Origin: a virus
DNA: 26,000 nt
IMG/VR virus record: IMGVR_UViG_3300045107_000048
Location: 1 to 26,000 of that record
Direction: 5' to 3' (one strand)
Shown: piece by piece, positions 5,020 to 25,877 of the stretch
Layout: every line of letters begins with the position of its first letter
How positions within the stretch are numbered: the stretch's first letter is position 1
Translations under genes and position numbers: made by a program
The notes under the pieces: model-generated
What the model was told of the DNA's origin: nothing
The model's database searches: none
Seen by the model: only the letters and a program-made list of their open reading frames with translations

Positions 5020-6554
5020 GGAGCAAGAACAGATTCCGCACCGCGGGCGCGAATGCGCTGGCGGACGTGTCTTTCCAGGCCGCCGAGACCGCAACCTCGT
5101 CCCCCCAGGGCGGCCCCGCCTCAGCCCTCGACACCCTGGATCCGAAGCTTGAGTACGTTGGCGGCTACGGCATAGCGAATAGCACGCTCGAGCGCACTCT
5201 CCCGTCTCAGCTCCGCGACCCGCGCGCGCCCGAGGTCACCTTCGAGACCTACCGGCAGATGCTCAACGATCCGGAGGTCTGCTCCGACGTCCGGACGCTG
5301 CGCGACATGGCCCTCGCCGATGGCATCCAGATTTCGCCCGGGATCGACCGGAATCTGGCAGACGACGACGCGCCAGAATTCGCCCGAGCGGTCGAGATGG
5401 CGGAGTTTGTCGAGCGGAACCTGGTGGGGCTCCGCAAGCCTCTGGAGGACACGCTCGAAGGGATCGTCGAGTCAGCCCTGACCTACGGCCATAAAACGGC
5501 GGAAATCACCTGGAAGCTCGCCACGGGGCAGGACGCCGGCAAATTGATGCTCGATCGGATCGCGCAAAAGGATTACCGCACGCTCGATTTCGTGGTCGAC
5601 CGGTTCTGGAATCATCTCGGTTTTACCGCCCGCACGCCGGCGCAAAGCGTCACGACGATGACCGTCATCCCGCGGGAAAAGTTTTTTCACCTGGCGCTTC
5701 ACGAGGAGGACGAAGACCCGCGCGGCCGCTCGTCGATCCGGTCGGTGTATACGGCCTGGACGTTTAAGTGCCTGACCTGGCCGGAATATTTCCGCTGGCT
5801 GCAGAATTGCGCGTTGCCTTCCGTCATCGGCGTGACGGCGCCGAAACAGCCCGGCGACGTCCAGCGTAACGCCGACGGATCCAAGACCGCCGGCGGCAAA
5901 GCGCTCTCGCCGGCGGAGGCCATGTTGCAGGCCCTGCTCGGCCTGAAAAGCGCCTCGGTCGCGATCGTCCCTAACGGGGCGCAGATCGAGCAGCTGGAAG
6001 TGATGGGTGAGGGGGCAGGTTTCGAGCGCGGCATTAACGTCGCGGACTCCCAGATCTCTAAGGCGATCCTTTTCCAGACGCTCGCCACGTCTGAGGCTCA
6101 GTTCGGCACCCGGGCGCAGTCCGAAACTCATATGGGCGTGCTCGACATGGTGGTCTGGTGGTTGAAAGGGCGCATCGCCAAGGCTCTCAAGTCTGACCTG
6201 GTCGAGAAAATCATCCGCTACAACTTCGGCGACGAAGCGCTGCGCTTCACGCCGCAGATCTCCCTCGGCGACACCGAGCGGCGCGACTGGGCGACCGACG
6301 CCGCGGCCGCCGTCCAGCTCTCGTCCGAGATCACTGATTCACAGTGGAACGCTGTTACCGAGCAGATCGGCCTGCCGCCGCCCCTCCCGGGCGAAGAGCC
6401 ACGCGGAATGGCCCGCCAGGCGCAGATCGCCGAGCAGTCCGGCAAGCCAGTACAGACGCCTGTACCGCCCGACAACAAGAGACAGGCGGCCTTACGCCGC
6501 TTCAAGCCGCGCGCCGGCGCTTTCGTTACCGTCAAGATGAGGAGGGCCGCGTAA
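5004..6554 (+). CDS. Portal protein (DUF935/Mu gp29-like)
   Basis: Dodecameric portal at the unique capsid vertex, through which DNA enters and to which the tail connector binds. At 516 residues it is the usual portal size, and it sits between terL and the head protease, the canonical position. Recognisable segments include ALTYGHKTAEITWKLA (about 156-171) and EYFRWLQNCALPSVIGVT (about 260-277), which resemble the conserved core of the DUF935 (Mu gp29) portal family. The N-terminus is basic (MRKRPRSKNRFR). ATG 5004 lacks a Shine-Dalgarno sequence and lies in a hairpin loop, and no better in-frame start is present downstream. Family assignment is from memory of motif style and context, so the family name is less certain than the role. 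Confidence 0.85.
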   Translation: MRKRPRSKNRFRTAGANALADVSFQAAETATSSPQGGPASALDTLDPKLEYVGGYGIANSTLERTLPSQLRDPRAPEVTFETYRQMLNDPEVCSDVRTLRDMALADGIQISPGIDRNLADDDAPEFARAVEMAEFVERNLVGLRKPLEDTLEGIVESALTYGHKTAEITWKLATGQDAGKLMLDRIAQKDYRTLDFVVDRFWNHLGFTARTPAQSVTTMTVIPREKFFHLALHEEDEDPRGRSSIRSVYTAWTFKCLTWPEYFRWLQNCALPSVIGVTAPKQPGDVQRNADGSKTAGGKALSPAEAMLQALLGLKSASVAIVPNGAQIEQLEVMGEGAGFERGINVADSQISKAILFQTLATSEAQFGTRAQSETHMGVLDMVVWWLKGRIAKALKSDLVEKIIRYNFGDEALRFTPQISLGDTERRDWATDAAAAVQLSSEITDSQWNAVTEQIGLPPPLPGEEPRGMARQAQIAEQSGKPVQTPVPPDNKRQAALRRFKPRAGAFVTVKMRRAA

Positions 6555-9961: not shown

Positions 9962-10591
9962 ATGCCCACAGTCGCCCAGATCGAGAACGCCGACGCCCTG
10001 ACCGCGAGCCAGGCCCTTCGCCTGATCGCGCGGATCCGCGCGTCCGACCGCTACCGCGACAACCGCGCGGCGTACCCCGATCTGGAAACGACGATCAAGG
10101 CGAAGATCAACCGGCGCGTGCCGATCACCGGGGCGACCAATGCCGCGCCGGTCGTCATCACCGCGGCCGGCCATGGCTTCAAGGACGGCGACCTGGTCAC
10201 CGTCCAGGGAGTCGGGGGCAACGAGAGCGCGAACGGGGTCTGGGTCGTGGCGAACGCCGCGGAAAACACCTTCGAACTCCGGGGCTCGGCCGGTATAGAC
10301 GTCTACACCTCGGGCGGGGAAGTGGTCGACCTGCAGTCGCAGCACCTGGCGGCGATCACCGACCTGCTCCGCGACGGGACGGTAGGCGTAAACGGGGGCC
10401 GCGACGGCGTGGATTTTTCCCTCTCGCGGGACCGCGAAGACCTGATCGCCGAGGCGCTCGACCTGATCTATTCGGCCGAAGACTCCGGGGCGATCGTGGC
10501 GGTGGGCCAGCGCGGGACATCTCCCTGCGTCCGCTGCGGCTGCTGGCCCTGTAGGTGCGGAAGGTGTCACGGGTTTTTATGGGAATTTTGA
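9962..10591 (+). CDS. Connector-region protein with FCCH-like domain; probable frameshift near 3' end
   Basis: Unassigned protein of the head-tail connector cluster. Residues 1-50 are helical (ENADALTASQALRLIARIR). Residues 53-121 form a beta domain resembling the E1 FCCH-type domain seen in many phage proteins (ITGATNAAPVVITAAGHG, then NTFELRGS), also present in the tail gene at 19032. Residues 125-175 are helical again. The last 20 residues are abnormal: six Cys in CVRCGCWPCRCGRCH, unlike anything else in the window. Shifting to the -1 frame after codon 185 (10514-10516) gives DISLRPLRLLAL and a TAG at 10552-10554, with normal high-GC3 codons and normal spacing to the next gene. A lost G in the GGG run, or a real shift, is likely; the intact product would be about 197 residues. 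Confidence 0.7.
   Translation: MPTVAQIENADALTASQALRLIARIRASDRYRDNRAAYPDLETTIKAKINRRVPITGATNAAPVVITAAGHGFKDGDLVTVQGVGGNESANGVWVVANAAENTFELRGSAGIDVYTSGGEVVDLQSQHLAAITDLLRDGTVGVNGGRDGVDFSLSRDREDLIAEALDLIYSAEDSGAIVAVGQRGTSPCVRCGCWPCRCGRCHGFLWEF
10118..10324 (+). repeat. FCCH-like domain, copy 1 (protein-level repeat)
   Basis: Encodes residues 53-121 of the connector-region protein. About half the residues match the copy at 19428-19643, including TGATNA, GGN, NTF and YTSGG. Confidence 0.7.
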
Positions 10592-22803: not shown

Positions 22804-25281
22804 ATGCCTTTCCCTATCATCGCCCTGGCCATCGGCGTCATTTCCTTCGTCGCTCAATCCCTGCTCAGGCCGAAGCAGAAGCCTCCGAAGGCTGCCAACA
22901 TTAGCGATTTCAACGTGACGGCCGAAGAGGCGGTTTCGATTCCGTACCTGGCGGGCACTCGAAAGCTTGCGCCTAACATCACGTTTTTCGGAGATCTGCA
23001 GGCGCGGCCGATCACCAAGACTATCAGCCGAATCTGGCTCGGCTTCTTAGTGCCGGACATCAAAAACCAGCAGGTCATCGGCTATCGGTACAACGTGGGG
23101 ATGGAACACGGGCTATGCTTCGGTCCGGGCGTCACGCTCAAGCGTATGACGATGGACGATAAGGAGCTGTTCAGCGGCTCGCTGATCGGCTCGCCCGGCA
23201 CCACCACCATCCTGAAGGAGAATCTTTTCGGCGGCGAAGACAACGACGGCGAGGGCGGCGTGAACGTCATTCTGGACTTCTACGAGGGGACCAGTTCCCA
23301 GACTGCCAACTCGTACATGGTTAGCCAGTACGCGCGCCAGAGCGGCCACCGTGACGTCAGCTACGCGGTGTGGCGGGGCCCGTCGCAGGGCGCGATCTAC
23401 GTGGGTGGAAAATACGTCTCGGGCTGCGGATACCTGGGGAAAAACCCGATCGTGCGCCCCATCGCCTACTACCTTCAACGCCTGCCCAATTTCCTCGGGG
23501 ACGCTTATAAGTCGGTGGGGGCGAACGGAGACGCCAACCCGGCCAATATCATCTATGAGCTGGCCATCTCCAAACTGTTCGGCGGTGGCCTCCCCACCAG
23601 CAAGCTCGACACCCCGGCGTTCCAGGCCGCGGCGCAAACCCTCTTCAACGAAGGGATCGGCATTAGCCCCATCTGGGACCGCACGGACTCGATGGAAAAT
23701 CTACTTCAGCAGATTGTGAACATCGCGGACGCGGCCCTCTACAGCGACCCCCTGACCGGGCTCATCACCTTCAAGCTGATCCGCAACGATTACGACCCGA
23801 ACACGCTGCTGGAGCTGACCGACGACGACGTGCTGGAAATCGAGGACTACACGCGCGGGGCCTGGGACGACACGAAAAACGAAGTCCGCCTCACCTACAC
23901 CAGCCGGGCCGACGACTATAAAGCGAAAATCGCGCTCGGGCAGGACCTGGCCAATCAGCGAATCCGCAACGCGACCGACCCTCTGGCGCTTCAATACGAT
24001 TACGTCTTGGAGCCGGACCTGGCGCAGAAATTGGCCTTCCGCGAGACGCGCGTAGCGGCCACGCCCCTGGCGCGCGCCACGATCCGCTGCAACCGCAAGG
24101 CGGCCGTCCTGGGGCCGGGCTCAGTCTTCAAATGGACGACCAACCGAATCGTGCCCGGGTTGAGCTCGAAAATAATGCGCGTGGCCAAGGCCAATTACGG
24201 GCGCCTGGGCGACTCGCGCGTGACCCTCGAAATCACCGAGGATATCTATTCGCTCGGCGGCACGATCTACAGCCCGCCGGCGACGTCCGCTTACAACGAT
24301 CCGGTCGGGACGCCGCAGGCCTCGCCCAACATCGTGGCGCAGGAAGCTCCCTACTGGTACGCGAAGGAAAAATTCCTTCCCTGGTCCTTCGTGCAGCAGC
24401 CCAGCGGCTCCCACGTCTCCTATGACGTGTACGCGTCCACGGACGGCGGCACGGTGTATAACCTAACGGACAGCAGCCAGTTCTTCACCCCGGTGGGCGC
24501 GCTAGCCTCCAGCTATCCACAGGTGAGCGTTGGGGCCTACGACGCGACGGGCTTCGAGGTCACCAACGTCGCGGGCCTGGTCGACGTTTTCGCGAATGAT
24601 CCGGCCTACGCCAACCAGGGCTCGAACCTTCTGTACTTCGAGGACACGGGCGAAATCTGCGCCTTTGAAACGGTTACGTTCTCGAACATCACGGGTCGCT
24701 ATACCTTCGCCGGCATCTGGCGCGGAGTGCTGGACACGACGCCGGCTGCGCATGGCTCGAGCACGCGCGTGTGGGTGTTCACGCTGGGGCAGTCGGTCAG
24801 CTCCGTGGAATATCCGGCCCTGTCCACCGTCAAGCTGAAGCACCTGCCGCGCAACGGCAACGGGCAGATCGACCTGTCGGCCGCCACCGCCAAAACCATC
24901 GCCGCGGACGATCGCGCGCTGAAGCCGTACCCGCCGGGGGATTTCCAGGTGGATGGGTCGTACACCAGCAACACGCACACCGGCGACGTGGCCCTGAGCT
25001 GGGTGGAGCGCAACCGGGTGACGCAGGCCACCATCCTGAAGCAGTCCGACAGCACCGTGACGCCCGAGGCCGGCACCACCTACAAGCTGGTCATCAAGAA
25101 CGCGTCCAACACCGTCATCCGCACGGAAACGGGGCTCAGCGGCACCACGTACAATTACACGCAGACCACCGAAATGGCTGACAACAGTGGGGTGCTTTCA
25201 ATTTCCCTGACATTTGAATTGCAGGCGGAATGCGGCGGGCGTTTGTCGAACGTGTGGCGGCGGACCTCGACTAGAGTTTAA
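22804..25281 (+). CDS. Large tail-tip protein (gpJ/GTA gp15-type host-specificity or hub protein)
   Basis: Last large plus-strand tail gene, 825 residues, probably the central tip/hub that carries host-contacting domains. The N-terminus is a hydrophobic segment (IIALAIGVISFVAQSLL, about 5-21) followed by RPKQKPPKA, a layout common in this family. Residues 40-400 resemble the phage tail protein core (EEAVSIPYLAGTRKLAP, ALYSDPLTGLITFKLIRNDY, WDDTKNEVRLTYTSR). The C-terminal part (about 500-825) is made of beta-domains, the last resembling a fibronectin-like module (DVALSWVERNRVTQ, then TYKLVIKNASNTVIRTETG), consistent with variable receptor interaction. ATG 22804 follows a short gap and lacks a Shine-Dalgarno sequence. 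The stop overlaps a possible small ORF (TAATG). Confidence 0.85.
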   Translation: MPFPIIALAIGVISFVAQSLLRPKQKPPKAANISDFNVTAEEAVSIPYLAGTRKLAPNITFFGDLQARPITKTISRIWLGFLVPDIKNQQVIGYRYNVGMEHGLCFGPGVTLKRMTMDDKELFSGSLIGSPGTTTILKENLFGGEDNDGEGGVNVILDFYEGTSSQTANSYMVSQYARQSGHRDVSYAVWRGPSQGAIYVGGKYVSGCGYLGKNPIVRPIAYYLQRLPNFLGDAYKSVGANGDANPANIIYELAISKLFGGGLPTSKLDTPAFQAAAQTLFNEGIGISPIWDRTDSMENLLQQIVNIADAALYSDPLTGLITFKLIRNDYDPNTLLELTDDDVLEIEDYTRGAWDDTKNEVRLTYTSRADDYKAKIALGQDLANQRIRNATDPLALQYDYVLEPDLAQKLAFRETRVAATPLARATIRCNRKAAVLGPGSVFKWTTNRIVPGLSSKIMRVAKANYGRLGDSRVTLEITEDIYSLGGTIYSPPATSAYNDPVGTPQASPNIVAQEAPYWYAKEKFLPWSFVQQPSGSHVSYDVYASTDGGTVYNLTDSSQFFTPVGALASSYPQVSVGAYDATGFEVTNVAGLVDVFANDPAYANQGSNLLYFEDTGEICAFETVTFSNITGRYTFAGIWRGVLDTTPAAHGSSTRVWVFTLGQSVSSVEYPALSTVKLKHLPRNGNGQIDLSAATAKTIAADDRALKPYPPGDFQVDGSYTSNTHTGDVALSWVERNRVTQATILKQSDSTVTPEAGTTYKLVIKNASNTVIRTETGLSGTTYNYTQTTEMADNSGVLSISLTFELQAECGGRLSNVWRRTSTRV

Positions 25282-25378: not shown

Positions 25379-25411
25379 AAATTAAGGGGGGCGAAAGCCC
25401 CCTTTTAATTT
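25379..25411 (+). terminator. Strong terminator at end of structural operon (GAAA tetraloop)
   Basis: Left arm AAATTAAGGGGGGC (25379-25392), loop GAAA (25393-25396), right arm GCCCCCTTTTAATTT (25397-25411), with one G-T pair and one bulged T. A C(GAAA)G loop and a G/C core make it very stable; the right arm supplies the T-run. A-rich and T-rich flanks on both sides suggest it can act in both directions, between convergent operons. Confidence 0.9.
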
Positions 25412-25437
25412 GAGTGCAGACGTCTGCACTCAAATTA
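25406..25437. repeat. Perfect 32-bp palindrome
   Basis: Sixteen-base arms with no spacer, centre between 25421 and 25422; core TGCAGACGTCTGCA, outer ends TAATTTGAG / CTCAAATTA. It shares bases 25406-25411 with the terminator. It could be a dimeric protein site, a second hairpin, or a recombination or resolution site. No T-run follows on the plus strand. Confidence 0.85.
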
Positions 25438-25461: not shown

Positions 25462-25509
25462 AAGAGACAAAGGGCCAAGAGATTGAAACCCCTTGGCCCT
25501 TTGTCTCTT
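25462..25509. terminator. 18-bp perfect inverted repeat between convergent genes
   Basis: Left arm 25462-25479 (AAGAGACAAAGGGCCAAG) and right arm 25492-25509 (CTTGGCCCTTTGTCTCTT) pair perfectly around a 12-nt loop. It ends 17 bases before the stop of the minus-strand membrane gene, so it most likely terminates that gene, and could also act from the plus side (CTCTTTGATC follows). T-runs are short, so an mRNA-end stabiliser is an alternative. Confidence 0.6.
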
Positions 25510-25526: not shown

Positions 25527-25877
25527 TCAGGCTCTCGCGGCGCTGGATCTCGGCTTGAGCCCGGCGACTAGGGCAGAAAGAGCAGCCATCACCACTCCCA
25601 GAAATAGCGCAAGAATCAATAAGGTCCACATCGGCGCAGGCGCCGCCGAGCGCCCTACAGCCAGAGCGATGCCGTGCCCTGTGCAGAGAATCGCCGCTCC
25701 AGGCAGGACCGACCAAAATCGGGTCGAGAAGCCCTTCACATCCCGGCTCACATAGAGCAGAAAGACGATCAGCGCCAAATAGGCCACAAGGGAGGGCAGC
25801 GCGCTTCGCACATAGAGGGATACGACGACCGACAGAGCGGCAATCGCGAGACTGCCGAATATAGACTGAGATTTCAT
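25527..25877 (-). CDS. Four-helix membrane protein of unknown function (116 aa)
   Basis: Minus-strand gene, convergent with the structural operon. AGGAG lies five bases before the ATG (25877) on its strand, a good ribosome site. Four hydrophobic helices are visible at about residues 4-23, 28-44, 54-75 and 83-107, with basic residues in the connecting loops (R24, R45, K48, R53) and a basic C-terminus (LKPRSSAARA). No enzymatic motif. A holin or another lysis-related inner-membrane protein is possible because lysis genes often follow tail genes, but four helices is atypical for a holin. A superinfection or membrane moron is equally possible. Confidence 0.7.
   Translation of the reverse strand: MKSQSIFGSLAIAALSVVVSLYVRSALPSLVAYLALIVFLLYVSRDVKGFSTRFWSVLPGAAILCTGHGIALAVGRSAAPAPMWTLLILALFLGVVMAALSALVAGLKPRSSAARA

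Follow-up and report, generated by a model that had tools for sequence, protein, structure and literature searches.

A perfect palindrome beside a phage late-operon terminator contains a dispersed 16-bp site, the probable loading site of an orphan ParB

The palindrome and the neighboring terminator

The IMG/VR record IMGVR_UViG_3300045107_000048 is a 26,000-base virus contig, a fragment carrying late genes (terminase, portal, head protease, capsid, tape measure, and tail), and the entire record is the window analyzed here. Near its end lies a perfect 32-bp palindrome, TAATTTGAGTGCAGACGTCTGCACTCAAATTA (positions 25406–25437, no strand assigned), whose 16-nt arms are 100% complementary with zero spacer. 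The central part, GTGCAGACGTCTGCAC (25414–25429, no strand assigned), is a conserved 16-bp core and a putative parS-like site. Based on sequence comparisons, we propose that the palindrome is most likely the docking site of a ParB-like protein and not a terminator component. It was the longest perfect spacerless palindrome of the window, the runners-up having arms of only 10–11 nt, and it is located between two convergent genes: the gene of the tail hub protein (phrog_1101; 22804–25281, + strand), which is the last of the late operon, and a small open reading frame of 116 amino acids without a confident family (25527–25877, − strand). An earlier note on this DNA had described the perfect palindrome, arms far beyond chance expectation, and a location between convergent operons; the first two descriptions were confirmed, and the flanking genes do converge.

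Immediately upstream, an intrinsic-terminator-like hairpin with a GAAA loop (GGGGGGC-GAAA-GCCCCC; stem at about 25384–25404, + strand, matched on both strands) has a T/A tail that runs into the left end of the palindrome (25406–25411), and the right arm of the palindrome is a reverse repeat of this tail. As a 32-nt RNA, the palindrome forms a stable hairpin (−19.0 kcal/mol; surrounding region, z = −9.1). No T-run follows position 25437, and an Rfam scan returned only below-threshold chance matches to microRNAs. A separate imperfect hairpin of 48 nt (25462–25509, no strand assigned; 23-nt arms, 91%; −31.7 kcal/mol as RNA) is a neighbor outside the site, and neither of its strands shows a clear T-run.

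Relatives of the tail hub were recovered by an alignment-based search, the single-protein search having given none. The closest relative, L250, has a hub that is 60% identical, and the alignment continues through the operon end, where L250 retains the block GCTGAGGACGCTGC and the GAAA-loop terminator but has no palindrome. The palindrome is thus a separable site beside the terminator. An intrinsic terminator would be a hairpin with a T-run behind it, retained at the operon end in relatives; the palindrome has no such T-run and is absent from L250. Judged from the sequences, the palindrome is not part of the terminator, which is merely its neighbor. The earlier description of a palindrome welded to the terminator therefore holds for position (overlap at 25406–25411), but not for a single unit. 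A relative retaining the terminator without the palindrome was the observation that the earlier note had named as telling against the element; L250 breaks the link with the terminator, but the element proved to be real through a recurrence that the note had not foreseen. Three other tail-hub relatives (L282, L283, and L299) have in common a different perfect palindrome of 22 bp, CATTGATTTTATAAAATCAATG.

Recurrence and dispersal of the 16-bp core

The exact 32-mer had zero further copies in IMG/VR, showing that the long flanks are not shared and that the core alone is. The central 20-mer recurred amid unrelated flanking sequence, in 6 viral contigs and in 3 genome contigs, and the central 18-mer was present in 64 IMG/VR stretches, compared with 0 for a control palindrome of equal half-site composition. 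Searching named phages and plasmids with the palindrome (blastn) gave no useful match, and no paper containing the 16-mer was found among the open-access papers searched. Core copies occupied intergenic DNA and several unrelated genes, in which they were read in differing frames (SADVCT, VQTSAL, and CRRLH); thus, the DNA is conserved and not a peptide, and an explanation by a protein repeat was dropped for this reason. A host-genome motif was also dropped, because 399 Burkholderiales genomes (about 1.3 Gb) contained only 14 exact copies, confined to 8 genomes. Two of these genomes had three copies each, over 17 and 33 kb, a grouping such as prophages would be expected to give.

Dispersal was measured in 20 ParB-encoding, site-bearing contigs, read whole or over their first 40 kb and chosen for having at least one copy. 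Each had 3–8 copies of GTGCAGACGTCTGCAC with 0–1 mismatch (chance expectation for the 16-mer, about 1e-5 per contig), and the median spacing between copies was 7.3 kb. Most copies were located within genes and the others were intergenic. In other contigs, 6 of 23 intergenic copies were located between convergent genes, so the placement observed in the window is ordinary for this class of sites. In a position-weight matrix, the positions beyond the 16 bp had hardly any information content; the matrix was built from copies with at most 2 mismatches from the core, which inflates information, and only its calibration against simulated sequence was used. In the class, two flanking pairs were complementary above chance, and complementarity beyond these two pairs was at background.

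The window itself contains two degenerate copies, each of which has 3 mismatches to the core but is still self-complementary at 7 of 8 pairs (no strand assigned): GTACAGACGCCTGTAC at the portal/head-protease junction (6450–6465) and GTATAGACGTCTACAC within a tail gene (10293–10308). In simulated sequence, sites of this kind occurred at 0.01 per window, and the hub relatives, 672 kb in all, contained one (3 mismatches, near-palindromic). In the cultured phage VarioGold, an exact copy at 5.8 kb directly follows the gene of the major capsid protein, and near-exact ones are found at 15.6, 21.0 (late-operon end), 29.5 (inside parB), 31.9, and 37.8 kb; Acidovorax phage Aval has mostly a symmetric variant, GTGCACACGTGTGCAC.

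Some individual placements are recorded here. In L022, L023, and L026, the site is encoded close to the C-terminal end of the lambda-type terminase large subunit (GpA), and in L056 it is near the C-terminal end of a protein resembling these terminases. A CI-like repressor gene (L006, 84–190) has the site in its linker, with other palindromes, GTCCGCACGTGCGGAC and GTGCGTACGTACGCAC, downstream.

An orphan ParB and the site copy inside its gene

A ParB_N protein, typically of 500–790 amino acids, was encoded by 35 of 50 site-bearing records. The most widespread protein cluster overall looked primase-like, and no other cluster was as constant as ParB. These ParBs combine PF02195 (ParB_N) and PF17762 (HTH_ParB) with a Cys motif, retain the nucleotide motifs GERRxR and ENxQR, and match the solved structures of ParB, Noc, and KorB (8qa8). 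A ParA-type ATPase (PF13614) was found in none of the 35 ParB-bearing records (14 of 14 control genomes were positive), and a ParA-binding motif was found in none of the 15 ParBs examined. VarioGold encodes ParB (VG_p35), of which the VarioGold paper (PMC9658991) reports a ParB-like domain only; both VarioGold and Aval have integrases.

The reverse test started from 80 contig loci fetched by ParB homology alone, with no use of the site in their selection. The site was present in 66 of these loci, and in 38 it was present outside parB (66 outside copies). Controls were negative: all 14 shuffled palindromes gave zero in these loci, as did the site itself in the window's tail-hub relatives (672 kb).

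Within parB, the bases of the palindrome spell the conserved Cys motif [S/G]-A-D-[V/I]-C-T. Across 61 parB genes, the Ser codon was AGT in 24 of 30 cases (background, 6.8%) and the Ala codon was GCA in 37 of 50 cases (background, 13%), with the third base of the Thr codon, immediately beyond the 16 bp, being near background. The Val codon was GTG where outside sites had the half-site GTGCACAC and GTC where they had GTGCAGAC (19:1 vs. 2:7, P = 1.7e-4, uncorrected for phylogeny). Codon bias and Val covariation together indicate that the parB copy behaves like a true site and follows the copies elsewhere; DNA-level selection, as read from these codons, acts on this copy. A comparison of ParB residues with half-sites picked out numerous columns, both within the helix-turn-helix (HTH) and beyond it, is confounded by phylogeny, and is not counted as evidence.

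Two further arrangements were observed. In the AT-rich contigs L040, L054, L055, L058, L065, and L067, one GC-rich copy of 24–28 bp was located inside a conserved gene of approximately 300 amino acids, which is phrog_1748 in L055; ParB_N was found in none of these contigs searched. In G024 (L120, 5430–5570), three exact 16-mers were located within about 130 bp, in what may be an operator-like or a loading cluster.

Proposed mechanism and alternative explanations

From the site class, its dispersal and exclusivity, its genetic link to parB, the DNA-level selection on the parB copy, and the extra copies of the window, we consider it probable that the palindrome holds one instance of a scattered parS-like site at which an orphan phage ParB clamp is loaded. 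By analogy with the ParB family, ParB is most likely the binder, and the clamp step and the function are predictions from the family. An operator for a dimeric protein, one of the possibilities listed in the earlier note, was right in kind, the core being a fixed 16-bp symmetric site in many phages.

A class of temperate phages has GTGCAGACGTCTGCAC at intervals of about 7 kb, both within genes and at their ends, and encodes the likely reader, a large orphan ParB with a cytidine triphosphate (CTP)-binding N-domain, the ParB HTH, and the Cys motif. A CTP-bound ParB dimer would contact both half-sites, shut as a clamp, and then slide along the phage DNA, such that a few loading sites several kilobases apart could give a ParB coat over the whole phage genome. 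The output would be KorB-like or Noc-like regulation, or organization of prophage or replicating DNA, more likely than partition; partition would probably not be the chief role because ParA was not found in the ParB-bearing records and because VarioGold and Aval have integrases.

Several observations weigh against this mechanism. ParB_N matches were absent from 15 of the 50 site-bearing records, several of which were fragments, and 14 of the 80 ParB loci had no site within about 10 kb. Long contigs with the site and without ParB_N included G024 (52 kb), G025 (44 kb), and G037 (51 kb), and the AT-rich contigs G028, G038, G039, and G048 (42–60 kb) had no ParB_N match and one 24-bp to 28-bp copy apiece, in a phrog_1748-like gene. 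No ParB gene was found in the 26-kb window, which is a late-gene fragment, and the ParB of this phage would be encoded in its unsequenced half. The part of L250 that was read contained neither the site nor ParB. In addition, the class does not typically have the eight further complementary pairs that border the core in the window, and the lack of correction for phylogeny in the Val covariation counts on the same side. Site carriers without ParB may have a divergent reader, may use the ParB of a resident prophage, or may have lost the gene.

The atypical flanks have a possible, although rather unlikely, explanation of their own, in which a template switch (inverted duplication) or an assembly error gave perfect arms to what had been a half-site or an imperfect site; the accidental part would then be the extra 8 + 8 flanking bases only. 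In favor of such an origin, the class as a whole has no flanking extension, and the terminator tail reappears, reversed, in the right arm, but the match of the core to the class and the two extra copies of the window would be left unexplained. This origin is compatible with a ParB loading site and touches the flanks only.

It is improbable that the core instead serves some other DNA-binding protein as a scattered operator, be it a CI-like phage repressor with stoperator-type sites or a factor of the host, with ParB merely carried by phages of the same kind. The records without a ParB_N match and the three operator-like copies of G024, which has no ParB, would fit such an operator, and dispersed phage repressor sites are of a known kind (L5 stoperators and phiC31 inverted repeats). 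However, the CI/Cro region of VarioGold (annotated at 32996–34052) has no copy, the nearest being at 31899 and 37753; host chromosomes are without the site; no other protein cluster is equally constant; and the codon-selected copy inside parB tracks the outside sites.

We regard as very unlikely that the palindrome is an RNA element, that is, a second hairpin that backs up or protects the late-operon terminator or that, as the earlier note had suggested, protects or insulates transcripts. The palindrome adjoins the terminator, folds well, and is perfect over 32 bp, which exceeds what the core of a protein site requires; but L250 has the terminator without the palindrome, no T-run lies behind it, the core is also found in coding sequences and varied contexts, and only the first two flanking pairs in the class exceed background complementarity. 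A structural role would also not hold 16 exact letters across phages. Finally, a site for telomere resolution or recombination in a linear phage-plasmid, also raised in the earlier note, can be practically dismissed, although no search for a protelomerase was made: protelomerase targets are likewise perfect palindromes, but related phages have 3–8 interior copies, many of them in genes, which resolution would shred; cos ends, attP, and a tyrosine recombinase are present in VarioGold; and no support for a recombinase site was found.

The proposed ParB loading site resembles several known systems. In plasmid RK2, the OB operators of KorB, with the palindrome TTTAGCSGCTAAA, are dispersed over the plasmid. 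As in RK2, a single mobile genome has a number of short palindromes spread across it and encodes a ParB-family protein with CTP-clamp motifs and an HTH, and regulation at a distance, a feature of KorB, may be shared; the palindrome differs, however, and the carrier is a phage and not a plasmid. KorB acts with KorA and IncC, whereas no ParA was found here; KorB has been described as switching between clamp and repressor (PMC11790492). The phage sites share with chromosomal ParB–parS and Noc–NBS a 16-bp perfect palindrome, the same fold, and the same HTH family, but they are dispersed across the whole 35-kb to 45-kb genome and not clustered near the origin, and the phage ParB is far larger, with a Cys-rich motif and without ParA or a ParA-binding motif. 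Chromosomal parS is TGTTTCACGTGAAACA, and the spo0J (parB) gene of B. subtilis holds an internal copy. Compared with ParABS, short palindromic parS-like sites in multiple copies are present, and the ParA partner and the ParA-binding motif are absent. The centromere repeats of phage N15, the phiC31 inverted repeats, and the L5 stoperators are also short sites, scattered in each case through one temperate phage genome and read by one phage protein; their sequences and proteins differ from those described here, N15 having the full SopAB and phiC31 and L5 using repressors.

Orphan proteins of the ParB-CTPase fold, located on prophages and lacking a ParA partner or a ParA-binding motif, were recently catalogued as common in a PNAS 2025 survey (PMC12704722), which, in the portion cited here, names no DNA target for them. 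The phage ParBs of this study are in the same ParA-less state, and a candidate DNA target is proposed. The near-invariant site is tied to one ParB subfamily, and both are present in the cultured temperate phage VarioGold, making function directly testable. The internal copy of parB, with codons held for the DNA and not for the protein, is a clear example of overlapping information. More tentatively, and with somewhat less than even confidence, we suggest a widespread, undescribed ParA-less phage system in which a CTP-clamp ParB would load at a near-invariant dispersed 16-bp palindrome, one copy of which lies in the Cys-motif codons of parB, and would coat prophage or replicating phage DNA to silence or organize it; site carriers without ParB may use or evade the ParB of a resident prophage.
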